The notes under the pieces are model-generated. The model worked only from the letters and a program-made list of their open reading frames with translations, did not search any database and was not told the DNA's origin. From Verrucomicrobiia bacterium (GTDB taxonomy: Bacteria; Verrucomicrobiota; Verrucomicrobiia; Verrucomicrobiales; DEV007): 64,000 bases of DNA. The DNA lies in assembly GCA_030425385.1 (NCBI GenBank), contig JAUIAH010000015.1:62001-126000 (forward strand). Direction: 5' to 3'. Made by a program: the position numbers and the translations under genes. Of this stretch, positions 7,499 through 64,000 are shown piece by piece. The stretch's first letter is position 1. Each line of letters begins with the position of its first letter.

Positions 7499-9106
7499 AT
7501 GCTTACCATCCGCAAACTCAGCAAATCTTTCGGCGGCCGCACCCTCTTTGAGGACGCACAGATGCAAGTCAATTACGGAGAACGGGTCGCCCTCGTCGGC
7601 CCGAACGGCGCAGGCAAGTCAACTCTCTTCAACATCATCCTGAAGCAAGACGAACCCGATCAGGGGAAGGTCGAACGCGATGAGTGGACCATGATCGGCT
7701 ATCTCCCCCAGGAGAGCGAGGCCGTCGCGGACGAGACTGTTCTCGAAGTCGCCACGGGCCGGGCAGGTGAGTTGGAAAAGTATGAGGCCGAGCTAAAGGC
7801 CCTGGAAGACAAGGGCGATGTGGAAGGCGCTGAGTATCTAGAGGCTCAGGCCAAGTATGACGCGCTCAACGATCCTCAAATCGAGGCCAAAGCGAAGGCC
7901 ATGCTCACGGGGCTCGGCTACAAAGAAGAGGACCTTGACCGCAAAGCCCGCGAAATGAGCGGGGGCTGGATCATGCGCGCCCACCTGGCTCGACTCCTCG
8001 CCATGGAGCCCGATCTCCTCATGCTGGATGAGCCGACCAATCACCTCGATCTCATCTCGCTCCTCTGGTTCCAAGACTACCTGAAGACCTACAAAGGCGC
8101 CATCCTCATGATCTCGCACGATCGGCAATTCCTCGACGAACTCGTGCAGAAGGTCTTTGAGATCGATAATCCCAAGCTGAATCCCTACAAAGGGAACTAT
8201 TCCGACTACGAAAAGCAGAGGGAAGAGAATTTCCAACGCCAGTACACCGCCTATCGCAATCAGCAGAAGGAAATCAAAGCTCTCCAAGATTTCGCCAACA
8301 AGTTCCGATCCGTCGCCTCCAAGGCCTCCCAGGCCCAGAGCAAGCTCAAGCAGATTGAGAAGATGGATATCATCGAGAAGCCACGACGTCCCAAGAAGCC
8401 TTTCGCCTTTTGCTTTCCGCAGCCCGAGCGCGGGGGGCAACCGGCCATCACCATCTCCGGCGTCCATTTCGCCTACGGCGATCACCAAGTCTATTCCGGC
8501 GTCGACCTCACCGTGGACCGGGGCGAACGCACGGTTCTCGTGGGTCCCAATGGCGCGGGGAAATCGACCCTCCTCAAGATCCTCGCAGGCGAACTCCAGT
8601 GCCAGGAGGGCGATCGCCGCCTCGGTCATAATTGCAAGATCGGCTATTTCTCCCAGCACCGCTCCGACCAACTCGACGCCAACAACACGGTGGTCGAGGA
8701 AGTGCTCAAATGCGCTCCACCCGAGTATCGCGAAGACCAGGTCCGTGGCATCCTCGGCTCCTTCCTCTTCCGCAAAGAAGACATCTACAAGAAGACAGAC
8801 GTCCTCAGCGGAGGCGAGAAAAGCCGTCTCAATCTGGTGAAATTCCTCGTCGATCCCCCCAATCTCCTCCTCATGGATGAGCCCACGACCCACCTCGACA
8901 TCCTCAGTGTGGAATCCCTCATCATCGCCCTCGAACGCTACGAGGGCACCCTCGTCTTCATCTCGCACGACGTCCATTTCATCCGTAAGCTCGCCACCAA
9001 GGTCCTCCATGTGAAGAACGGCGAACTCCGCTCGTATCCCAGCGGCTACGACTATTTCCTGGAGAAATCAGGCGCGCTCGATGACCGCGCCGCCATTGTC
9101 GCCTGA
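7499..9106 (+). CDS. ABC-F family ATPase (translation factor type)
   Basis: A 535-residue cytoplasmic protein with two ABC domains and no membrane segments, the hallmark of ABC-F proteins that act on the ribosome. Domain 1 has Walker A GPNGAGKST (residues 34-42), the signature MSGGWIMRAHLARLL and Walker B LLMLDEPTNHLDL. Domain 2 repeats these with GPNGAGKST, LSGGEKSRLNLVKF and LLLMDEPTTHLDI. The linker between them (about residues 240-310) is charged and helical, as expected for the P-site tRNA interaction motif. The exact subfamily (Uup, EttA, YheS or YbiT type) cannot be fixed by eye. A 390-residue antisense ORF over this gene is a shadow. Confidence 0.93.
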   Translation: MLTIRKLSKSFGGRTLFEDAQMQVNYGERVALVGPNGAGKSTLFNIILKQDEPDQGKVERDEWTMIGYLPQESEAVADETVLEVATGRAGELEKYEAELKALEDKGDVEGAEYLEAQAKYDALNDPQIEAKAKAMLTGLGYKEEDLDRKAREMSGGWIMRAHLARLLAMEPDLLMLDEPTNHLDLISLLWFQDYLKTYKGAILMISHDRQFLDELVQKVFEIDNPKLNPYKGNYSDYEKQREENFQRQYTAYRNQQKEIKALQDFANKFRSVASKASQAQSKLKQIEKMDIIEKPRRPKKPFAFCFPQPERGGQPAITISGVHFAYGDHQVYSGVDLTVDRGERTVLVGPNGAGKSTLLKILAGELQCQEGDRRLGHNCKIGYFSQHRSDQLDANNTVVEEVLKCAPPEYREDQVRGILGSFLFRKEDIYKKTDVLSGGEKSRLNLVKFLVDPPNLLLMDEPTTHLDILSVESLIIALERYEGTLVFISHDVHFIRKLATKVLHVKNGELRSYPSGYDYFLEKSGALDDRAAIVA

Positions 9107-9553: not shown

Positions 9554-9608
9554 ATCAGCTAGACTTGTTCCAAGACATTCGGTAATGTTAGCATTTCTTG
9601 GAGCTGTC

Positions 9609-10106
9609 ATGCATCCGAACCAACATAAAGAAGAATTTAGCAGGGCTTACGTGAGAGCTGTCGCGTCAGTCGCTGGCGTCAAAGTGTCGACCGATGACGT
9701 CGACGACGATAGCATTGATCTCAAGCTTGAGCGGTCCGGGCAATGCTCACCAAAGCTCGATCTTCAATTGAAGTGCACCACAGACATCATTCCAAAGGAG
9801 GGTGATCTTTCCTTCGTATTGAAATTGAAGAACTATGACGATTTGCGGAGACCAACCCTAGCTCCCAGATGGCTGGTCGTACTTTTCGTCCCAGATGACG
9901 CTGCCAATTGGCTCGAATGTTCCCCTGATCAGCTCATCCTCCGCCATTGCGCTTGGTGGACTTCGCTGGCCGGTGCCGACGAATCAGACAACAGAACCTC
10001 CGTGACAGTGAAGTTGCCACGTGCCAATGTATTTACGCCGCAAGCCGTGACCGCCAAACTGGATGAAATCACGTCTCACTTTCGCCCTGCTAGTCACACA
10101 GCATGA
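9609..10106 (+). CDS. DUF4365 protein, PD-(D/E)xK nuclease-like
   Basis: The 165-residue product starts with NQHKEEFSRAYVRAVASVAG and continues to DDSIDLKLE and PKLDLQLKCT, the conserved features of DUF4365 proteins. Asp37, Asp51, Gln53 and Lys55 fit a D...D-x-Q-x-K arrangement like the catalytic core of PD-(D/E)xK nucleases; the catalytic reading is inference. DUF4365 domains are found in restriction and other defence contexts. I chose ATG 9609 over ATG 9585 because GGAG at 9600-9603 lies 5 bases upstream of it. The stop overlaps the next start as ATGA, implying translational coupling. AT-rich and repeat-flanked, it looks horizontally acquired. Confidence 0.75.
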   Translation: MHPNQHKEEFSRAYVRAVASVAGVKVSTDDVDDDSIDLKLERSGQCSPKLDLQLKCTTDIIPKEGDLSFVLKLKNYDDLRRPTLAPRWLVVLFVPDDAANWLECSPDQLILRHCAWWTSLAGADESDNRTSVTVKLPRANVFTPQAVTAKLDEITSHFRPASHTA

Positions 10107-11236
10107 GAGCCCGCATCATTGACCGCAACGTCCTCGAAAGCTTCAGCCCCGCTGAGGTCGTTGCCTACTTGCGCTCACAAGGTTGGATCTTGCAGGGCTT
10201 TTGGAAAGAAGACGCAAGCGTTTGGGCTCACGAGGGCACGACCGAACAAATCGTTGTTCCAATTGATGAATCACTAGCGGACTACCCTCACCGAATGGCA
10301 GAAGTATTGGGATCACTCGAGCGTTTGGAGAAGAGATCTCAGCTTGAGATTGCTCGGGACTTGGTGGTTGCCAATGTGGATGTCTTCCGACTACGGCTCT
10401 GCTCACCCTCCATTGATGATGGCAGTGTGTCCATCGAAGAAGGAGTAGCTTTGTTTACCAATGCAAGGGACATGCTCCAAGCGGCAGCTCGCGCAACGGT
10501 AGCCCCTAAAGCCTATTATCGAAGCCGTCTGCCAATTGAAGCCGAAGGCTACATGGACCGCGTTCGATTGGGACAAACAGAGCACGGAAGCTATGTCGTG
10601 ACCGTATTGTGCCCAATCACACCCGAACTCAACTATGACGGTGATTGGGCCGAAGGCGTTGGCGACCCATATGAACGCCGGGTGACCAGCACACTAGCAA
10701 ATGCCGTGATTGAATTAGGCCAAGCATCCCGTGAAGCCATGTTACAATCGAATCTACGCTCCTTCGAAAGCCGCATACCTCAGGGAGTAAGCGCCAACCT
10801 CTGTGACGCCGTGGCGCGCATTGGGGACCTCATGGAAGATGGACGGCTAGAGTTCGACTTTTCATGGTCACGAACGCGCCGTCCTCCCAAACTCCGAATG
10901 AATCGCGTAACCATCTCATACGATTCCTTTCCAATTCTCAAAGAAGCTGCACGATTGTTAAAAGAGACCTCCTGGGACGACGACTTCGAGCTGAGTGGTC
11001 CAATCATCCGCCTCGATAGCACGAATACCAGCGAAGGCGGCGAGATCCTTGTACAAGCCATGGTCGATGAACGGCCACGGAAAGTGAGAATGCGACTAGA
11101 TGCCGACAAGTATCAGATGGCTCTCTCAGCACATCAGAACGATCAAGACATCCGTTGCGAGGGACGCTTAGAGAGAGAAGGGCGCAATGTAATCCTCAAA
11201 GCTCCACGCCGATTTATGGTGGAGAAAGAAGAGTAG
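10103..11236 (+). CDS. Unknown partner protein of the DUF4365 module
   Basis: A 377-residue soluble protein with no signal peptide, membrane helix, P-loop or nuclease motif that I recognise. The N-terminal 100 residues (SPAEVVAYLRSQGW, then IVVPIDESLADYPHRMAEVL) look like a small alpha/beta unit. The middle is helical and the last 110 residues are beta-rich (FELSGPIIRLDS, RKVRMRLDADKYQMAL). The start ATG overlaps the DUF4365 stop by 4 bases, and its stop overlaps a GTG start of the next gene, so the three proteins are made from one message and probably work together. By position it is a candidate sensor, effector or specificity subunit; no function is claimed. Confidence 0.7.
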   Translation: MRARIIDRNVLESFSPAEVVAYLRSQGWILQGFWKEDASVWAHEGTTEQIVVPIDESLADYPHRMAEVLGSLERLEKRSQLEIARDLVVANVDVFRLRLCSPSIDDGSVSIEEGVALFTNARDMLQAAARATVAPKAYYRSRLPIEAEGYMDRVRLGQTEHGSYVVTVLCPITPELNYDGDWAEGVGDPYERRVTSTLANAVIELGQASREAMLQSNLRSFESRIPQGVSANLCDAVARIGDLMEDGRLEFDFSWSRTRRPPKLRMNRVTISYDSFPILKEAARLLKETSWDDDFELSGPIIRLDSTNTSEGGEILVQAMVDERPRKVRMRLDADKYQMALSAHQNDQDIRCEGRLEREGRNVILKAPRRFMVEKEE

Positions 11237-35188: not shown

Positions 35189-36460
35189 ATGAGAATCCGC
35201 CGCCTCTACTGTGAGGATTTCCAGCCCTTCGGAACGATGGATCTATCGTTCCCTCCCGTGGAATCCCCGACACGCGGCGGCGAAGTTCACCTCCTCTGTG
35301 GCGTCAACGGCACTGGCAAAACGCGAATCCTCGCCGCTCTCGCGGCAGTGTTCGGAAATCCAAAACCTTTACAAGCTCGCCTCCCAGAGAAAGCACACCG
35401 ATTTCTTATCCACACTGAGGAGGCTCCACAACGGGCCAATCACAATTGCCAAATCGATGACGATCCAGCATTCGGATTCGCTGCGGGTGCCAATAGTTTC
35501 ACATGGATGGTCAAACCACCAGCTTGGAATACCATCCCAGCATATGCTCACGCCGGGGAAGCCTACCTCAAGTCCCCCCCCGTGAAGGGTGTCATGGAAT
35601 CCGTGGAGGTCCCCCATAGAGAAATCGCCCTCGCCTTTTCGAAACCAGAGCAAGGGAACCTCAGCCAAGCACTCTATAATCTCACCATTATGGCCGCCAA
35701 TGGGATTCGTACTTATGGCAGTCTCGAAGCCGCTGAAAGAGAATCGCGCCCCTTGCGCTTGATCAATCGTATCGAGCAAATGCTAGGGCATCTCACACGG
35801 CGCAAAGTCTCGTTTGAACCCGTACCAACACCTTCCACTCGGCTGCTCGTGAGATGGGGTAGTGGAGATCCATTGCCATTTGATCTGTTGCCAGACGGGC
35901 TACGCTCCGTCCTAGGCTGGATCGTCGAGCTCGCCGTGATGATGGACCTCCATTATCCCAATGAAACGGAACCCTGGGAGCAACCCCTTATCCTCCTCTT
36001 AGACGAAGTGGAGAGGCACCTTCATCCAGCCTGGCAAAGGCAAGTACTCCCCATCGCTCAGGAACTCTTTCCAAAAGCTCAATTCTTTGTCGCCACGCAT
36101 TCCCCCTTCGTCATCTCCTCGTTGAACGAAGGGTGGATTCACCCGCTCACACTCAATGACGATGGAAGCGTCACAGCGGAACCTCCCTTGAGGGCGAGCG
36201 AAGGCGATAGTTATGTTAGCGTGATGGGAAGTATCATGGGAGTGACCGAGATCTACGACCCTGAGACAGAAGACCTCCTTTCCCGATATCGCGAGCTTCG
36301 CCAAGATGCCTTGTCTCACATTCCTAACAAACGCGAAGAAGCACTTGCATTGGCAGAAGAGATCAGTCGCCGCAGTCCGGAACTCGCCTATATGATGGCG
36401 AAAGAGAAGAAGCAACTGGAAGCCCTTCTCGTGGAGCCTGCGGAAGCCGTCGCATCATGA
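35189..36460 (+). CDS. ptuA: PtuA-like AAA/ABC-type ATPase (Septu-like defence)
   Basis: A 423-residue ATPase of the RecF/OLD/ABC type: Walker A GVNGTGKT (residues 38-45), a degenerate signature LLPDGLRSVLGW (about 233-244), Walker B LILLLDE (267-273), D-loop HLHPAWQRQ and switch His304 in VATHSPFVIS. Its last 60 residues are a charged helix. It overlaps the HNH gene by ATGA. ATPase plus HNH in this order is the composition of the Septu system (PtuA/PtuB), which stops phage infection. It is somewhat short for PtuA, and generic ATPase-HNH pairs exist, so 'Septu-like' is the safe call. No reverse transcriptase is nearby, so it is not part of a retron. Confidence 0.75.
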   Translation: MRIRRLYCEDFQPFGTMDLSFPPVESPTRGGEVHLLCGVNGTGKTRILAALAAVFGNPKPLQARLPEKAHRFLIHTEEAPQRANHNCQIDDDPAFGFAAGANSFTWMVKPPAWNTIPAYAHAGEAYLKSPPVKGVMESVEVPHREIALAFSKPEQGNLSQALYNLTIMAANGIRTYGSLEAAERESRPLRLINRIEQMLGHLTRRKVSFEPVPTPSTRLLVRWGSGDPLPFDLLPDGLRSVLGWIVELAVMMDLHYPNETEPWEQPLILLLDEVERHLHPAWQRQVLPIAQELFPKAQFFVATHSPFVISSLNEGWIHPLTLNDDGSVTAEPPLRASEGDSYVSVMGSIMGVTEIYDPETEDLLSRYRELRQDALSHIPNKREEALALAEEISRRSPELAYMMAKEKKQLEALLVEPAEAVAS

Positions 36461-37059
36461 GGCGGCAGTTTCGCGCCGAGCCTCCTGATTTCCTTCTCAA
36501 TCGTTGGCAGCAATGGGGCGAGAACTGGGAAGCGAATCTCAAGGATGCCGCGCCTACGGGCTGGAACTGGCGGCAGGTTGGCAATGTGAGGGTCAATCAC
36601 AGACTGCTCCCATTGCTCAAGGCCCAAGCGCAGGATCATTGTTCATTCTGTGATGCCTTTCCTGTAAGCCCGCCGTCTAACGAAACCATCGAGCATTTCA
36701 GACCCAAATCACGATTTCCACGGCAAGCTTGGGAATGGGAGAACCTCTTCTTCTGCTGCGACTTCTGTCAGACCCAGAAGGGGGAGCGCTGGGAAGAGGC
36801 GCTCCTCAAGCCGGACGAACCCGACTACGCCTTTGAGCGGTATTTCATGTCGGACTACACGAATGGCGAACTCCTCGTGCGCCCAGACCTGAGTCCCACG
36901 GAGACGGAGAGGGCCCATTGTACGATCGAGATCTATGCATTGAACGACCCACGGCATTGTGTCGAGCGTCTACGGCAACAAGAATGGCGCAGCCTCCTGC
37001 CGGACCACGACATCGATTCCTTCGCCTATCGCGACTTCTTGCAGAGCAACGAAGGCTAA
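36457..37059 (+). CDS. ptuB: PtuB-like HNH endonuclease
   Basis: A 200-residue protein with CSFCD (Cys62, Cys65), IEHFRPKS (residues 78-85) and ENLFFCCDFCQTQKG (about 95-109). This is the zinc-supported HNH fold of the TIGR02646/PtuB family, where the EHFxPKS motif carries the catalytic His. The start overlaps the stop of the ATPase gene by 4 bases, indicating a coupled complex. In Septu, the nuclease acts with the ATPase to halt phage replication; whether this pair is active is unknown. Confidence 0.75.
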   Translation: MRRQFRAEPPDFLLNRWQQWGENWEANLKDAAPTGWNWRQVGNVRVNHRLLPLLKAQAQDHCSFCDAFPVSPPSNETIEHFRPKSRFPRQAWEWENLFFCCDFCQTQKGERWEEALLKPDEPDYAFERYFMSDYTNGELLVRPDLSPTETERAHCTIEIYALNDPRHCVERLRQQEWRSLLPDHDIDSFAYRDFLQSNEG

Positions 37060-57106: not shown

Positions 57107-60100
57107 TCAGAATCGTTCCCCACCCTCACCACCTTCGCCTTCGCCTTCACCACCTCCTGAACCACCGGCTCCTCCGCCTCCGCCTGAACCACCGCCGCCG
57201 CTTTCGTAGACCACGGCGCGGATACGTCCGAAGAGCCGCTCGAGTCCGGTGCTGGGAACACGAATGGTGACTTCGCTGAACGATCCTGATGGCGTTTCTG
57301 TCAGCGTTGCGGGAGCTACGGGCACCCAACCGTTCACGGTGTGGTCGGCAATCGCTGACCAGAAGGGCGTGGATAGCTTCGTGGATTGGTCAAAGTGCAA
57401 GATCATATCGACCGGGATCACGCTTGCTGCCGTGAAGGTGAAGAGCCAATCCGATTGCTGACCCGATCCAGTCAATGGCAGGGACGAGTGTGAGCGCGGG
57501 TCGAGACCGAGTGCCGACTCCACTCCATTGTTAATGCCGTCGGCATCGGGGTCTGCTTCGGCGCCACTGATGAGTGGGTCGGCCAGTTCCTCGGGCGTGA
57601 AATGCAAGGCCTGCCAGTTCTCAAAAGCAAAGTCGCCGGGAACCCACGTGACCTGGTCAAGTCCCGCGCTTTGCACCGCGTCTAACGGTTCGCCGGGTGC
57701 GCGATAGGCTACCCAGCGGAGCGTGTGGGTGCCTTCACTCACCGGAACGAGCTCGTATTTCCAAAGCTCGTTGGGATTGTCGAGCGCTTGATCGACGCCG
57801 TCGATGAGGAAAGCGAGTTCATAACCAGAGCGATTCGGTGCCTTCCAATAGAAGCGAATAGTGCCGGGCCCCGTGACTTCCGTTTCCACCCAAGAAGGCA
57901 CGCCGTCTGGTGTTTCCGGGGATGACATGCCACTATCACTGCCATCATAACTGATAGCCGCGGGATCGGACAACCCGATCCATGGCAAGGCCGCACTGGT
58001 GTTCCACGGTAGACTGAGTGCATCCAGCGCCTCAGCCAAAGCGATTGGGGCAATGGTGCTCACGCTGACTTGGTCGATGCGAATGGGCCCTTCCGTCGTG
58101 GCTGCCAAGGGGACTTGGAAGCGTAAGCGATGGCTCCCCTGACCAAGCGGGAAACGCGCAGGTGCCCAATCGGTAGCGCGTGCAAGTGTGTAGCTTTCAT
58201 TGTCTAACAACGCGGTCAATCGATGATCTGAGGATTGATACCAGAACGACAACTGGCCAGGCCCTTCCAACTCGGCGGCGACGTTCACGGGTCGAGGGAC
58301 GAGGCCTGGCGTAGGCATGTTCTCCAAGGCGCCATTGGCGTCGCGGGCCTGATCTGTTTGAACCATCCAAGGGCTGTGACCCGAAGCCACGACGGCCCTG
58401 ACAGGCACATCAAAGCCCTTGAAGAGAGGCGGCTCCGTTTCAGAAACGAATTTCACTTCGTCTACCCAAACACCAGCAGGGGCAAAGCTGTTCTCCGTCC
58501 GGTAATCCCAGCGCACGCGATGCGTGCCAGCAGACACGGCGACTTCGACATAGGTCCATTCGTCAGCGCTCTTGGCATCAATGTAGGGAATGTCATCGAT
58601 AAGCAGCTTGAAATCTTCACCCCCATACTGCGGACCTTTCCACCAGAAACCAAGAGTGCCTGGGCCGATGATCTCCGTTTCCATCCAGCTGGACTCGAAA
58701 GAATCGAGCTGCCCGCTCGCGGCCAGGTCCGTCGTGTCATGGGCGTGTGAGAATGGGTAGCCGTACCAAGGCTGATCGCCGCCCGTGGTCCAGGCGAGCC
58801 CCAGCGCATCCAGCCCCGTAGCGAGATCGATCGGTCGCGCGATCTCGATCGTGTCTAACAAAGCATGATGCCCGTCAACATGATCACGCCGCTTGTCGTA
58901 GATCCAGAAAAGGTCATACTTACCGTTGCCAATCCGCGCCAAGACGTTCTGCAAATCAGGCGTCATGCCGTTCAGCTCAGCTCGGTTGTTGTGTTCGATG
59001 CGGAAGGTGGGGCGGTCGAGCGAATCACTCTCAGCTTTCCAATCAAAGCTGATCAAGGCGGGGCCCTCGACTAACGTACGCACTGTGCTCTCGTCATTGC
59101 GCTCGGTCACTCCAGAACGAAGCCCCTCCGCCGTCACATCCCATGGATTCTGATCACCATAGCTGACAAAGGTCTGCTCCGGCGATCCCAGCGTTGTGCT
59201 GATGCTCGATGGGTCACTTGGAATGAAACGAAGATCATCGACAAAGGCCGTGTCGGTCGGCGAAGCCGCGTCTTGGCTGCGCTCATACGTCCAACGCAGG
59301 GTGTGAGTGCCTGCGCTCAAACTCAGGATCACTTCCTGCCATTCTGTTAGGAAATCAATATCCGTTTGCAAGTTGCCGTCGAGATACAGTCTGAGATCGT
59401 CTTGCCCAGTGTCCGTGCGCCACCAGAATCGCACGGTGCCCGGTCCAGTGATCGTCGTTTCCATCCAACTCTCTTGACCGACAGCGGTGGGCAGACTCAC
59501 CGCCGTGTCCACGCCGTCGTGACTGGAGTCGGCCGAAGCCACGCCCGCCCAACCAGGGCCACCAGTGGTCCAGGCGAAGCTTTCGCCCTCTAACGCTGAT
59601 TCGAAATCAGTGTAAGGGACAATGTTTACCGCGTCTAACCAAGCCAAGTCTTGGCCGCCAACGGTGTTGAAATTCTTGTCGTAACGCCACTCGATCACGT
59701 GTTCGCCCGGAGGGATGGCGTCTTCAATCAAAGCCCAGCCGGGCTCGTTGCTCGTGCGGCGAACTTCGATGCCATCGATCAAGAATCTGAGATAATCGAA
59801 GGAATGCGAGGACACGTTCCATTGAAACGTGATCCAGGCGGGCCCCTGAACGCGTGTCTTGATACCCGTGCTATCATTGTCCCCAATCACACCGCTCTGA
59901 GCGGAGCTCACGCCATCAAAGGCCTCGGTCGGTCCACTGGGTTGCCACGGCGCTCGGGTGGAGAACCACGGATAGCTGGTATTTCCGAGCGCATCGGCCA
60001 AGGGAGGCGATGCCGTTGCGGTGAACTGGACGTCGTCCAACCACACTTGATTCGAACCTGCGGAGGACGTGCTGAGGTTGTTCCATGCCCAACGCAAGAC

Positions 60101-63100
60101 GTGCACGCCAGCGGGCACGCTCAAGACGGAACGTTGCCAATCCGTGGAGCCCGCCTTGCGATCCCATTCGGTTCCGTTGACGGTGAAGATGAAGGCGTCG
60201 CTGTTATGTGAGGATGTCTTGGTCCAATAACTGATTTCTCCAGGTCCCGTCACGGTGGTTTCCATCCAGGACTCCTGCCCGGTGGCCACATCGCCACTCA
60301 CCGCGAGGTCATCATCAGTCTGAGCGGCTCCGAGTCCCAGCGTGCGCCAAGGGGCAGCACCTCCGGACGTCCAGGTGAGTCCGGTGTTGTCTAACGCATC
60401 TCCGTAGTCACTTTGATAGGGCACGATCTCCAATTCGTCTACCCAAGCCGTGTCGTCGAGCCCGCTGCCGCTGGCGTTCTTGGTATAGCGCCATTCCAAG
60501 GTGTGCGTGCCGGCGCTGAGTTCGCGAGCAATGTTCTCCCATTCATGATCTCCTTGGCGCCAATCCATGCGGGTGCCATTGAGATACCAACCCACCCAAT
60601 CGCCACTCAGTGAGGAACATTTCCACCAGAAAGACAGCACAGCCGGGCCCTCCACCGTTCGAAAGAAACTGGTCGCTTCGCCATCGCTGATGGCACCCGC
60701 TTGCAAGGCATCGACGCCATCATGAGTCGTGCTCGTTTGTGAGAACCAAAGTGCGCTGCCCATTCCTAACGTTTCCCCAGGCGCATCCAATGCCGTGGCA
60801 TAGGCCGGTGCGGCGTTCGGCACCCAGACAACGCTGTCTAACCAAGCCACATCGGGCAAGATCGTTGTACTGCTGTTCTTCGCGTAGGTCCAGCGGACGG
60901 TATGCACGCCTGCGCCAATCTCAAGCTGAGCCGTTTCCCAATCACTGCTGCTGAGCACGAGGCCAGGTGATTGGCCATCCACGCTGACAGAGAGCGTGTC
61001 CGAACTATGCGAAAGCGTCTTTGCGGCAAATGTGAGGGTTCCGGGTCCCGTCACGGTCGTTTCTAGCCAGCTCGACTCGTTGTGATCGATGGCGCCACTA
61101 CTCGCGGCATCCGTACCATCGGCGGCGTGACTCGAAACGTAGCCCGCCCATGGAGCATCGCCACCCGTGGTCCAGGTGAGGGCGGAATCGAGCGCGCTGT
61201 CCAATGCCCCGGGCGCGGCAAACTCCACACCATCGAGATAGCCTGCGTCATCGCCGGTGTCGACACTACCATTCTTCTCATACTGCCAAAGATGACGCTC
61301 CGTCGTCACGCCTGCGCGATGCATGGCAAACTGCCAGTCTTGCTCGCCAGAGATCTGGGCGAGTTGCACGCCATCCTGATAGTATCGTAGGCGGTCACTG
61401 GATTGCGACGACACCTTCCACCAGTAGAAGACCCACCCCGGTCCTGCCTGTTCCATCGAAAGCGACGTTTGTTGATTGTGCGTGATGCCGCCAGTTTGCA
61501 AGGCGTCCGTGCCATCCTGCGTGGTGGTGGACTGCGAGAACCACGGCTCGGAACCATAGGTCACGAGTGCTTGATCTTGCAATTCTAGCGCATTTCCTAG
61601 TACGTTGGGTACACTGGCTGACCAGCTCCACTCGTCCGTCCAGGTGCGGTCCGAGCCCGTGTTGATACTGTTGTTCTTGGCATAAGAGATCCTCACATGA
61701 TGACGACCGCTATCGAGGTAGAACTCCGGCTTCTCCCAGGCTTGCCCCGTGCCGCTGCGGGTGTCGATCGGCACACCATCGATGATCAAGGAGGCGATGT
61801 CGTTGGTCTGTGAATCGACGTTCCACCAGAATTGACCATGGCCCGGACCATCGATTACGGCTTCGATCCAAGTAATCTCGTTGTGGGTGATGGGGCCGCT
61901 TTCCGGAGCGCTCACGCCGTCATGCGTCGTGGCGCCTTGGGCCACCCAACCACCATCGCCACCACTGATCATGGCCACGATACTGCCAATGCTAGAGCCA
62001 TCGGTGGCGGCGCTCGCGAGCAAAGCAGGATTGGCTTCAGCGGTGAAACGCACCTCATCGACCTGCATGCGACGGCCTGAGTTGGCGGCGCCGTTCACTG
62101 GAGTGTAATCCCAACGCAGGGTGCGCGTGCCCGATCCGATCGCAGCCTCTAACAATTGCCAATCCGTGGCTCCCGCGATCTCAGTCAAGGCGGTGCCATC
62201 GACCAACAAACGCAGCGCATCGCCCTCGGCTGCGGAAGCCGCTCGCCACCAGAAACGCAGGGTGCCAGGACCGGTGACCGTGGTTTCCATCCAGGAACTC
62301 CCACCCGCATCGGGCTCGCCGCTTTGGGCAAAGTCCACGCTATCATGAGCCTCGGTATCGATCACCCCAGTCCAGGCATCACTACTGCTCGTGCTCCAAG
62401 TCAAGCTGCCTCCATCGAGGGCATTGGCAAGAGTTTCGCCGCTTGCGGCTGGTGTGTATGCTAGTTGATCAATCCAAGCCGTGTCGTCTCCTGCATCAAT
62501 GGACCCATTCTTCGTGTAACGCCACTGCACGAGGTGACTCCCACCAGCCACGACATAGGCCTGCTCGGCCCAATCCTGTTCGCCAGAGAAGTTGTGCGCG
62601 CTGATGGCAGTTCCATCGACGTAGAGCCGAAGACGATCGCTTGATTGGCTAGAGATCTTTCGCCAATACGTGAGGGTTCCTGGACCGGTCACGTGGGTTT
62701 GCAACCAAGTCTGTTGGTTGTGGTCGATATCACCACTTTGAGCCGCATCGATGCCGTCGTTCGTGACCGCTCCCTGACTGTACCACAACGCATCGCCGCT
62801 GCTGGTCCATTCCAGACCGCTCCCGTCCAAGGCGGATTCCAATTCGGGCGTGGTCTCGGGAGCGAAGCTCATTTCATCCAACCACCCGGCCTGACTGGCA
62901 TTGTTGTTACTGGTGCCGCGCTCCCATTCCCAACGAACGGTGTGCGTGCCGCTTCCCACCGTGCAGGCCACGGGTTGCCAATCGGTCGTCGCGGTCAACT
63001 CGTGACGTTTCACGCCATCGATGATGATCCGAAGACGATCGCCATTGGCCATCACGCTACGCCACCAGAAGCTCAAGGTGCCCGCACCGTTCACCGTGGT

Positions 63101-64000
63101 CTCCAGGCTGGTCCATTCGCCCTTGTCCAGACGCGGGGTCACGGCCGCATCGATACCGTCATGTGCCAGCGTGAGAGATTGCGGCAACCAACCTTCGGCT
63201 CCAGCTGCGCTCGCCACCGTGAAAGGCAAGGCAGGCGCATCCACGGCTTCGGCCAGACTGCCAGCCACGGGAGCCCAGGCGATCTCATCGACCCACCCCG
63301 TGTCGCTGCCGCCGGCACCGCTGCCGTTCTTGGTGTAGCGCCAGCTGACGGTGTGTTTGCCAGGGGTGAGATGCTGCGTGATCTGTTCCCAATCCGCTTC
63401 GCCAAAGATCGAGTCGATCTGACTGTCATTGATATAGAGCCGCAAGCGATCCCCCGAGCCTTCGGTTGAGGCTTTCCACCAGAAAGCGAGTGTGCCGGGT
63501 CCGTTGACGATGGTCTCCAAACGCGCCTCTTCATTGTCGCCAATGGCATTGGCCTGCAAGGCATCGCTGCCATCATGCGTCGTGGTGCTTTGTGAGGCCC
63601 AGAGGCTGTCACCATGAGTGAGCAAATCAGCCGGAGCGCTCTCTGCCGCATCGACTAACGGAATGCCAGCAGTGAAGGCAACTTCATCAAGAAACAGGGC
63701 GTCGCTTCCCACCGGGGCATTGCCATCCTTGGCGTAAAGCCAACGCAAGACATGCGTGCCTGCTGGCAAGGTGCGCTCGACCTGTTGCCAATCAAGATCG
63801 CCCCCCTCACTGATCTGCGCTTCGCCATTCACCAGGAAGGTCGCGAGATCGCCACTGCTCCCCGAAGGGCGCCACCAGAAACTCACCGTGCCCGGGCCCG
63901 TGACTTCGGTTTCGAGCCAGGTTTCCGCATTGATAGGCAGGCTCCCGCTATAAGCCGTGTCCGCACCATCGTGAGCCAAACCCGGTCCATTCACGCCAGC
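57107..64000 (-). CDS. Giant secreted protein with at least 16 tandem beta-rich repeats (partial, 5' end outside)
   Basis: The frame runs from the window end to the stop at 57107, about 2297 codons; its start lies beyond the window. At least 16 tandem units of about 130 residues are seen, each with the core pattern ETTVTGPGTLSFWWK, SSDRLRLYVDG, a DW, then GTHTLRWRYTKNGS and a final WVDEV. Each unit looks like a jelly-roll/MAM-like beta-sandwich. The C-terminal region has ISGAEADPDADGINN, a calcium-type repeat typical of Verrucomicrobia, then a beta domain and a low-complexity Gly/Glu tail. Antisense ORFs here are shadows. Surface adhesion or scaffold is likely; it ends 8 bp before the importer operon. 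Confidence 0.85.
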   Translation of the reverse strand, partial: AGVNGPGLAHDGADTAYSGSLPINAETWLETEVTGPGTVSFWWRPSGSSGDLATFLVNGEAQISEGGDLDWQQVERTLPAGTHVLRWLYAKDGNAPVGSDALFLDEVAFTAGIPLVDAAESAPADLLTHGDSLWASQSTTTHDGSDALQANAIGDNEEARLETIVNGPGTLAFWWKASTEGSGDRLRLYINDSQIDSIFGEADWEQITQHLTPGKHTVSWRYTKNGSGAGGSDTGWVDEIAWAPVAGSLAEAVDAPALPFTVASAAGAEGWLPQSLTLAHDGIDAAVTPRLDKGEWTSLETTVNGAGTLSFWWRSVMANGDRLRIIIDGVKRHELTATTDWQPVACTVGSGTHTVRWEWERGTSNNNASQAGWLDEMSFAPETTPELESALDGSGLEWTSSGDALWYSQGAVTNDGIDAAQSGDIDHNQQTWLQTHVTGPGTLTYWRKISSQSSDRLRLYVDGTAISAHNFSGEQDWAEQAYVVAGGSHLVQWRYTKNGSIDAGDDTAWIDQLAYTPAASGETLANALDGGSLTWSTSSSDAWTGVIDTEAHDSVDFAQSGEPDAGGSSWMETTVTGPGTLRFWWRAASAAEGDALRLLVDGTALTEIAGATDWQLLEAAIGSGTRTLRWDYTPVNGAANSGRRMQVDEVRFTAEANPALLASAATDGSSIGSIVAMISGGDGGWVAQGATTHDGVSAPESGPITHNEITWIEAVIDGPGHGQFWWNVDSQTNDIASLIIDGVPIDTRSGTGQAWEKPEFYLDSGRHHVRISYAKNNSINTGSDRTWTDEWSWSASVPNVLGNALELQDQALVTYGSEPWFSQSTTTQDGTDALQTGGITHNQQTSLSMEQAGPGWVFYWWKVSSQSSDRLRYYQDGVQLAQISGEQDWQFAMHRAGVTTERHLWQYEKNGSVDTGDDAGYLDGVEFAAPGALDSALDSALTWTTGGDAPWAGYVSSHAADGTDAASSGAIDHNESSWLETTVTGPGTLTFAAKTLSHSSDTLSVSVDGQSPGLVLSSSDWETAQLEIGAGVHTVRWTYAKNSSTTILPDVAWLDSVVWVPNAAPAYATALDAPGETLGMGSALWFSQTSTTHDGVDALQAGAISDGEATSFFRTVEGPAVLSFWWKCSSLSGDWVGWYLNGTRMDWRQGDHEWENIARELSAGTHTLEWRYTKNASGSGLDDTAWVDELEIVPYQSDYGDALDNTGLTWTSGGAAPWRTLGLGAAQTDDDLAVSGDVATGQESWMETTVTGPGEISYWTKTSSHNSDAFIFTVNGTEWDRKAGSTDWQRSVLSVPAGVHVLRWAWNNLSTSSAGSNQVWLDDVQFTATASPPLADALGNTSYPWFSTRAPWQPSGPTEAFDGVSSAQSGVIGDNDSTGIKTRVQGPAWITFQWNVSSHSFDYLRFLIDGIEVRRTSNEPGWALIEDAIPPGEHVIEWRYDKNFNTVGGQDLAWLDAVNIVPYTDFESALEGESFAWTTGGPGWAGVASADSSHDGVDTAVSLPTAVGQESWMETTITGPGTVRFWWRTDTGQDDLRLYLDGNLQTDIDFLTEWQEVILSLSAGTHTLRWTYERSQDAASPTDTAFVDDLRFIPSDPSSISTTLGSPEQTFVSYGDQNPWDVTAEGLRSGVTERNDESTVRTLVEGPALISFDWKAESDSLDRPTFRIEHNNRAELNGMTPDLQNVLARIGNGKYDLFWIYDKRRDHVDGHHALLDTIEIARPIDLATGLDALGLAWTTGGDQPWYGYPFSHAHDTTDLAASGQLDSFESSWMETEIIGPGTLGFWWKGPQYGGEDFKLLIDDIPYIDAKSADEWTYVEVAVSAGTHRVRWDYRTENSFAPAGVWVDEVKFVSETEPPLFKGFDVPVRAVVASGHSPWMVQTDQARDANGALENMPTPGLVPRPVNVAAELEGPGQLSFWYQSSDHRLTALLDNESYTLARATDWAPARFPLGQGSHRLRFQVPLAATTEGPIRIDQVSVSTIAPIALAEALDALSLPWNTSAALPWIGLSDPAAISYDGSDSGMSSPETPDGVPSWVETEVTGPGTIRFYWKAPNRSGYELAFLIDGVDQALDNPNELWKYELVPVSEGTHTLRWVAYRAPGEPLDAVQSAGLDQVTWVPGDFAFENWQALHFTPEELADPLISGAEADPDADGINNGVESALGLDPRSHSSLPLTGSGQQSDWLFTFTAASVIPVDMILHFDQSTKLSTPFWSAIADHTVNGWVPVAPATLTETPSGSFSEVTIRVPSTGLERLFGRIRAVVYESGGGGSGGGGGAGGSGGGEGEGEGGEGGERF

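Follow-up and report, generated by a model that had tools for sequence, protein, structure and literature searches.

The two overlapping genes at 35,189-37,059 of the window (the whole stretch of DNA analysed, 64,000 nucleotides of a contig of a Verrucomicrobiia bacterium) are a PtuA-PtuB pair, and we consider it very likely that they form a complete, stand-alone Septu system, of type I in PADLOC's terms and without a retron, which would act by the mechanism proposed below. The best PADLOC model for the ATPase is PDLC00281 (PtuA1; 242.5 bits, E 2.4e-72, best stretch at residues 116-413), and that for the HNH protein is PDLC00351 (PtuB1; 194.5 bits, E 4.6e-58, residues 1-196), both being models of sequence only. 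The HNH protein also scores 54.5 bits with TIGR02646, above the NCBIfam cut-off of 52.15. With these scores, the pair is real, far beyond chance. The first-pass annotation had recognised a Septu-like ATPase-HNH pair at this place and had proposed a PADLOC search: Septu models come out best for both genes, and the assignment is further backed by predicted fold, motifs and conserved adjacency. Of the features of a Septu type I system, a PtuA, a PtuB, their adjacency on the same strand and the lack of a reverse transcriptase (RT) beside them are found.

The features of the locus are the following, with the basis of each in brackets.

35189..36460, + strand: ptuA, SMC/Rad50-like ABC ATPase, 423 aa, ATG start (ORF, PADLOC, Pfam, model)
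35300..35323, + strand: Walker A GVNGTGKT, residues 38-45 (sequence; G38, N40, G41, G43 and K44 invariant in 26 aligned rows)
35888..35905, + strand: ABC signature region LPDGLR, residues 234-239 (sequence; P235, D236 and G237 invariant in 26 aligned rows)
35987..36028, + strand: Walker B / D-loop LILLLDEVERHLHP, residues 267-280 (sequence; D272, E273, L278, H279 and P280 invariant in 26 aligned rows)
36095..36106, + strand: switch histidine THSP, residues 303-306 (sequence; T303, H304 and S305 invariant in 26 aligned rows)
36457..37059, + strand: ptuB, putative HNH nuclease, 200 aa, ATG start overlapping the ptuA stop (ORF, PADLOC, TIGR02646, model)
36640..36651, + strand: first zinc-type pair C62-S-F-C65 (sequence; Cys62 in 91/91 and Cys65 in 90/91 aligned PtuB)
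36691..36711, + strand: EHFRPKS, residues 79-85, with the catalytic-type His80 (sequence; H80 in 91/91 aligned PtuB)
36742..36744, + strand: HNH Asn96 (N in 91/91 aligned PtuB)
36757..36771, + strand: second zinc-type pair C101-D-F-C104 and, directly after it, Gln105 (residue counts in aligned PtuB)

Both reading frames lie on the + strand, are full length without internal stops, and share the four bases ATGA, exactly the overlap first described. A Shine-Dalgarno-like AAAGG stands six bases 5' of the ATG of ptuA, and a search for a sigma-70-like promoter for the pair found none. The Walker motifs and the switch histidine claimed for the ATPase are readily seen, the core of Walker B being LILLLDE (residues 267-273). 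The EHFRPKS motif, on which the membership of the HNH protein in the PtuB/TIGR02646 family had been proposed, sits between the CxxC pairs 62/65 and 101/104. Judged from the sequence, the Walker A and B, switch and HNH His and Asn residues are intact, and the putative third HNH residue departs from the usual, being Gln.

Among PDB sequences, the strong relatives of both proteins come from E. coli Septu and from retrons, as their PtuA and PtuB. PtuA matches E. coli PtuA (8ee4) by profile at 1.7e-37 over profile positions 1-413, and it also matches retron PtuA (9vh1, E 7.8e-33). For PtuB, the values are 3.9e-16 with retron PtuB (9vh1) and 2.8e-7 with E. coli Septu PtuB. Pfam places AAA_21 and AAA_15 on the ATPase, and HNH_5 on the HNH protein below threshold only. 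At E <=0.001, the ATPase matches one protein in its own genome, which is itself.

The AlphaFold2 models, which are single chains built from 26-row alignments, reach a mean pLDDT of 94.5 for PtuB and of 83.8 for PtuA, the latter being weak at residues 79-84 and 89-113. The top Foldseek matches are Septu and retron entries, at ranks 1-10 for PtuB and for all 50 matches listed for PtuA. With VIA-align 2, PtuB reaches Z 19.8 to the retron chain 9u9y_H (2.3 A over 174 residues) and Z 18.3 to E. coli Septu 8eea_G (2.5 A over 186 residues). Its scores range from 15.4 to 19.8 for eleven Septu and retron entries, then drop to 8.5 for a chain of a retron mutant complex, and the first unrelated match is the HNH of Cas9 at Z 4.9. 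PtuA reaches Z 26.7 to 9nnh_C (5.4 A over 393 residues) and Z 25.3 to 8ee4_E (4.0 A over 336 residues), with 20.1-26.7 for 21 Septu and retron entries and at most 19.5 for SMC and Rad50 heads. In these structural alignments, the identity to the solved relatives is 15-27%. The predicted folds thus match the solved Septu and retron PtuA and PtuB.

The heads of Rad50, SMC and cohesin, as well as AriA of PARIS, have the same ATPase fold (Z 17.3-19.5), which would also fit a housekeeping repair ATPase of the RecF/Rad50/OLD type that happens to lie beside an unrelated HNH gene. Nevertheless, all these heads score below the 21 Septu and retron entries, and the NCBIfam RecF model, whose cut-off is 172 bits, gives 15.2, compared with the far higher score of the PtuA model. 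The pairing of the two genes and their patchy distribution also speak against such a gene. Counting both searches (which include the best 80 of 485 confirmed PtuA places) and after removal of five duplicates, PtuA and PtuB are neighbours on the same strand in 95/104 loci, and PtuB matches occur in 25 of 190 genomes, the source genome included (32 places, 30 of which give loci, one being the window). The first-pass annotation had named clustering with RecF/OLD proteins and an HNH that is not the usual neighbour as grounds for refutation, and this test comes out in favour of Septu. On profile scores and conserved pairing, a RecF/OLD repair gene was rejected, and its probability is practically negligible.

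Taken separately, the loci of the PtuB search are paired on one strand within 400 bases in 26 of 29 cases (the locus of the window excluded), and those of the PtuA search, a sample made of the best 80 of 485 confirmed places in named genomes, in 74 of 80. The nine unpaired loci comprise a fusion into a single ORF (L024), two loci where no PtuA is seen (L011 and L026) and six where no PtuB is seen (L096, L100, L112, L121, L126 and L128), some of which extend past the contig end. An overlap of exactly 4 bases occurs in 43/104 loci, and in 35/67 of those of the window's group, in this sample and with the most upstream start. As for a third recurrent gene, no family of ORFs of at least 100 aa occurs in more than five of the 63 group loci, of which 49 have at least 2 kb upstream and 54 at least 2 kb downstream. 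The recurrent neighbour families appear to be housekeeping ones, as read from sequence without a family search. PtuB has no match in 50,697 phage records, a scan of viral contigs gave 180 pattern hits with 0 confirmed, and PtuA matches in 70 plasmid records, none of which covers 80% of the query.

Some loci of the relatives have particular arrangements. The fusion (L024:7-2052, in the congener G003) is one 681-aa ORF with matches to PtuB as well as PtuA, in which the ATPase domain starts at about residue 271; the 726-position PtuA model of PADLOC also matches PtuB. The relative G021 has three PtuB matches (E <=2.5e-37) on three contigs (L004, L027 and L070), all of which seem to be flanked by a PtuA, L070 being placed third by contig coordinates. 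On a Rhizobium plasmid (L135:1-6318), a PtuAB-like pair is flanked by a helicase-related gene on one side and a DUF1156 gene on the other; these four genes overlap or nearly touch, and they perhaps form one larger operon. At L063:1508-4975, a large LRR-Roc-COR-TIR gene stands directly upstream of a group PtuAB pair.

In PADLOC, Septu type II is the system preceded by a reverse transcriptase, which is the same as type I-A retrons, according to the part of PMC8565338 on these types. Retrons of type I-A (Eco7/Ec78, Ec83) have homologous PtuA and PtuB, with Z up to 26.7 and 19.8, respectively, the name of TIGR02646 refers to retrons, and among PDB sequences PtuB is best matched by retron PtuB. The pair could therefore be the effector half of a retron, whose RT and msr-msd would have been missed or lost. 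A loose motif (Y/F-A/V/M/G-D-D) does flag an ORF of the window as well as 13 of 100 paired loci of the sample. However, in one of these 13 loci the motif lies within PtuA itself, and the ten flagged ORFs that were scanned with Pfam (ten of 13, two others being outside the scan) contain no RT. A filter based on two RT motifs flags 0 ORFs around the 63 group loci, and Pfam finds no RT among the nine neighbouring proteins. When the whole genome is searched by profile, RVT_1 is found only on contigs C47 and C6, whereas the window is on C19; since the two RT matches of the genome are on other contigs, the system is a Septu type I in PADLOC's terms. The Ec78 equivalog models remain far below their cut-offs (104.7 of 500 and 61.4 of 150).

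The N-terminus of PtuA points in the same direction. In the alignments that extend to the N-terminus, solved retron PtuA align with the window PtuA from their residue 45-66 on, where the latter starts, which indicates that they carry an N-terminal extension (about 45-65 residues) lacking in the window PtuA. The alignment with E. coli PtuA starts at residue 1 of both, so neither of these two has an N-terminal extension. The type I-A retron thus adds an RT, an msDNA and a PtuA extension, of which the RT and the extension were not found in the window system. On the tree, the window PtuA also lies away from the three retron PtuA. Between 30000 and 42000, Rfam yields no family at its gathering score, although it may not cover msr-msd RNAs. 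Based on RT location, Ec78 scores, the missing extension and tree position, we rejected the retron effector, which we regard as extremely unlikely, and we retain a stand-alone Septu.

Compared with the solved E. coli PtuAB (8ee4, 8ee7, 8eea, 8sux), the window system likewise comprises an ABC ATPase PtuA and an HNH PtuB, with a D-G-L-R signature in the former. The differences are an identity of only about 20%, a place across a supported branch of the tree, a PtuA of 423 aa instead of 465, and the Gln105 of PtuB. This glutamine, which follows the second CxxC, is presumably the third HNH residue, as we read the motif. Position 105 is Gln in 58 and Asn in 8 of the 66 aligned PtuB of the window's group, in this sample, compared with Asn in 17, Gly in 7 and Gln in 1 of the 25 other rows, where the seven Gly make the column less certain. 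Asp120 is found in 66/66 group rows versus 5/25 others. These counts cover 91 aligned PtuB (66 of the group and 25 others), drawn from relatives that include the best 80 of 485 PtuA places, with five loci found twice, unpaired loci, PtuA below 350 aa and PtuB below 140 aa left out.

As the residue is Gln rather than Asn or His, the assignment of an activity by analogy is uncertain, and an unusual third HNH residue might be taken as a sign of a decayed or inactive Septu remnant. Nevertheless, neither frame is truncated, the 4-base overlap is preserved, no Walker, switch, His, Asn or Cys residue is missing, and most members of the window's group also have Gln105. A remnant is thus very unlikely, and an intact Septu system is the reading that we keep.

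The first-pass annotation also suggested that the system may be a distinct subtype, on the grounds of a short ATPase with a degenerate ABC signature. The length is not unusual: the median of the group is 436 aa, and 12 of 65 full-length ORFs are shorter than the window PtuA, in a sample that includes the window, excludes duplicates and fragments, uses the longest start and comes from the best 80 of 485 PtuA places and the PtuB search. The protein is on the short side, in the lower quarter of the range of its group, and stands out as short only when compared with E. coli PtuA and the retron PtuA (542-552 aa). The signature is no oddity either, LPDGLR being the usual form in the group and E. coli PtuA having LSDGLR at the same place. 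As the length is normal for the group and the signature is close to that of E. coli, both arguments for a subtype fail.

What stands of this suggestion is a separate branch. The careful tree, with 56 rows, separates the window PtuA and 34 group members from 21 others with a branch support of 99/96, so that the proposed phylogeny keeps it distinct from PtuA of E. coli Septu and of retrons. The other side includes E. coli Septu (8ee4), Ec83 and two more retron PtuA, a Rhizobium plasmid PtuA and others. The row closest to the window PtuA is L059, with 44% identity over 393 columns. The 56 rows are 35 chosen from 66 of the group and 21 of 28 others, with seven long branches left out and with RecF and OLD rows absent; among the other rows, long branches still come together, and the composition of the E. 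coli row is unusual. Membership of the group was initially set by a profile score of at least 250 bits, and the group then turned out to lie on one side of the branch. In a quick tree of 94 rows, its 66 rows are also set apart (SH-aLRT 99). The members of the branch belong to Verrucomicrobiota, Planctomycetota, Bacteroidota, Acidobacteriota, Pseudomonadota and others. At the level of sequence, a subgroup does exist, which the PADLOC Septu models already recognise, and the locus belongs to a less-studied Septu branch.

A functionally distinct subtype would go further, with an H-N-Q centre and a group-specific ATPase surface leading to another substrate or trigger. The supported separation of the 35 group rows from the 21 others, the distribution of Gln105, for which the 56-row tree requires four changes between Gln and non-Gln, and that of Asp120 are in its favour. 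In contrast, PDLC00281 and PDLC00351 match all 26 group rows tried, the window included, the predicted fold and the order of the motifs are unchanged, and 8 of the 66 group PtuB have an ordinary Asn. We therefore find a functional subtype rather unlikely, and it is similarly doubtful that this multi-phylum branch is a separate Septu lineage with a target or trigger unlike that of the E. coli systems.

Upstream of the pair, and likewise on the + strand, is a PQQ-type beta-propeller gene, the end of which lies 34 bases from ptuA; downstream, a DUF1080-like gene (Pfam 3keto-disac_hyd) runs in the opposite direction. The right flank (DUF1080, a squalene-cyclase-like gene and a squalene/phytoene synthase, towards LepA) is conserved in three congeners within the stretch compared. 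The best congener matches of the left beta-propeller gene are on other contigs, next to different genes, so that an empty site cannot be cleanly delimited, and the 39 matches to this family in the genome itself make orthology uncertain. A close copy of the pair is lacking in all three congeners: G003 has two distant PtuB matches, and the other two genomes have none. From this patchy presence, gain by transfer is likely. Composition hardly supports it, with a third-position GC of 56.8% for ptuA versus 63-72% for nine other genes around, one of which is ptuB (68.2%). The neighbouring genes are ordinary, with no obvious defence island.

The Septu pair had been described as the second candidate defence locus in the window, and another two-gene pair does show a strong match to a PADLOC candidate, PDC-M02. 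Its genes, at 9585-10106 and 10103-11236 on the + strand, have a 4-base overlap. The first encodes a DUF4365 protein (PDC-M02A, E 5.9e-59) and the second matches PDC-M02B (E 1.2e-125, residues 1-376 of 377). The third-position GC of this pair, 54%, is the lowest of twelve genes measured. At 7499-9106 on the + strand, an ABC_tran and ABC_tran_Xtn protein (ABC-F-like) matches PADLOC mad3 (E 7.6e-52), which is probably a false alarm due to the shared ATPase fold. A 2295-aa ORF at 57107-63994 on the - strand has no Pfam match at E 1e-5.

A mechanism can be proposed by analogy with relatives, in which oligomer, ATP control, trigger, nuclease activity and defence would be shared. Li et al. reportedly found in 2024 that ATP inhibits PtuAB. 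Together with data on EcB88, Eco7 and two systems treated in a review, given below, this led us to propose a PtuA oligomer that is held by ATP and unleashes PtuB. The ABC-ATPase heads of PtuA would pair and stack into an oligomer bearing few PtuB subunits, and the ATP-bound oligomer would keep PtuB inactive. Phage infection, through nucleotide depletion or another disturbance, would then release PtuB, whose HNH centre may cut nucleic acid and halt phage growth at the expense of the infected cell.

Regarding the substrate, tRNA (the variable loop of tRNA-Tyr) and DNA would be about equally likely, judging from the relatives. In the part of PMC13096335 that concerns the EcB88 Septu of E. coli, mutants in the Walker motifs of PtuA or in H/N of PtuB lose immunity, and the system cuts tRNA-Tyr in the variable loop upon infection. 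A passage of PMC11555353 states that PtuAB of retron-Eco7 depletes tRNA-Tyr and that Eco4 PtuAB leaves tRNA levels unchanged. According to a review (PMC12948488), PtuA and PtuB of E. coli Septu form a 6:2 complex by which phage genomes are degraded, and Ec83 PtuAB degrades ssDNA once released.

The locus is ordinary, and as public models already name the system, its value is comparative and it brings little for discovery. The Septu mechanisms considered here rest on proteins of the E. coli type with conflicting targets, i.e. tRNA-Tyr, no change in tRNA, and DNA. The general parts of the mechanism would be revealed by a pair that comes from across the tree and differs in its third HNH residue.
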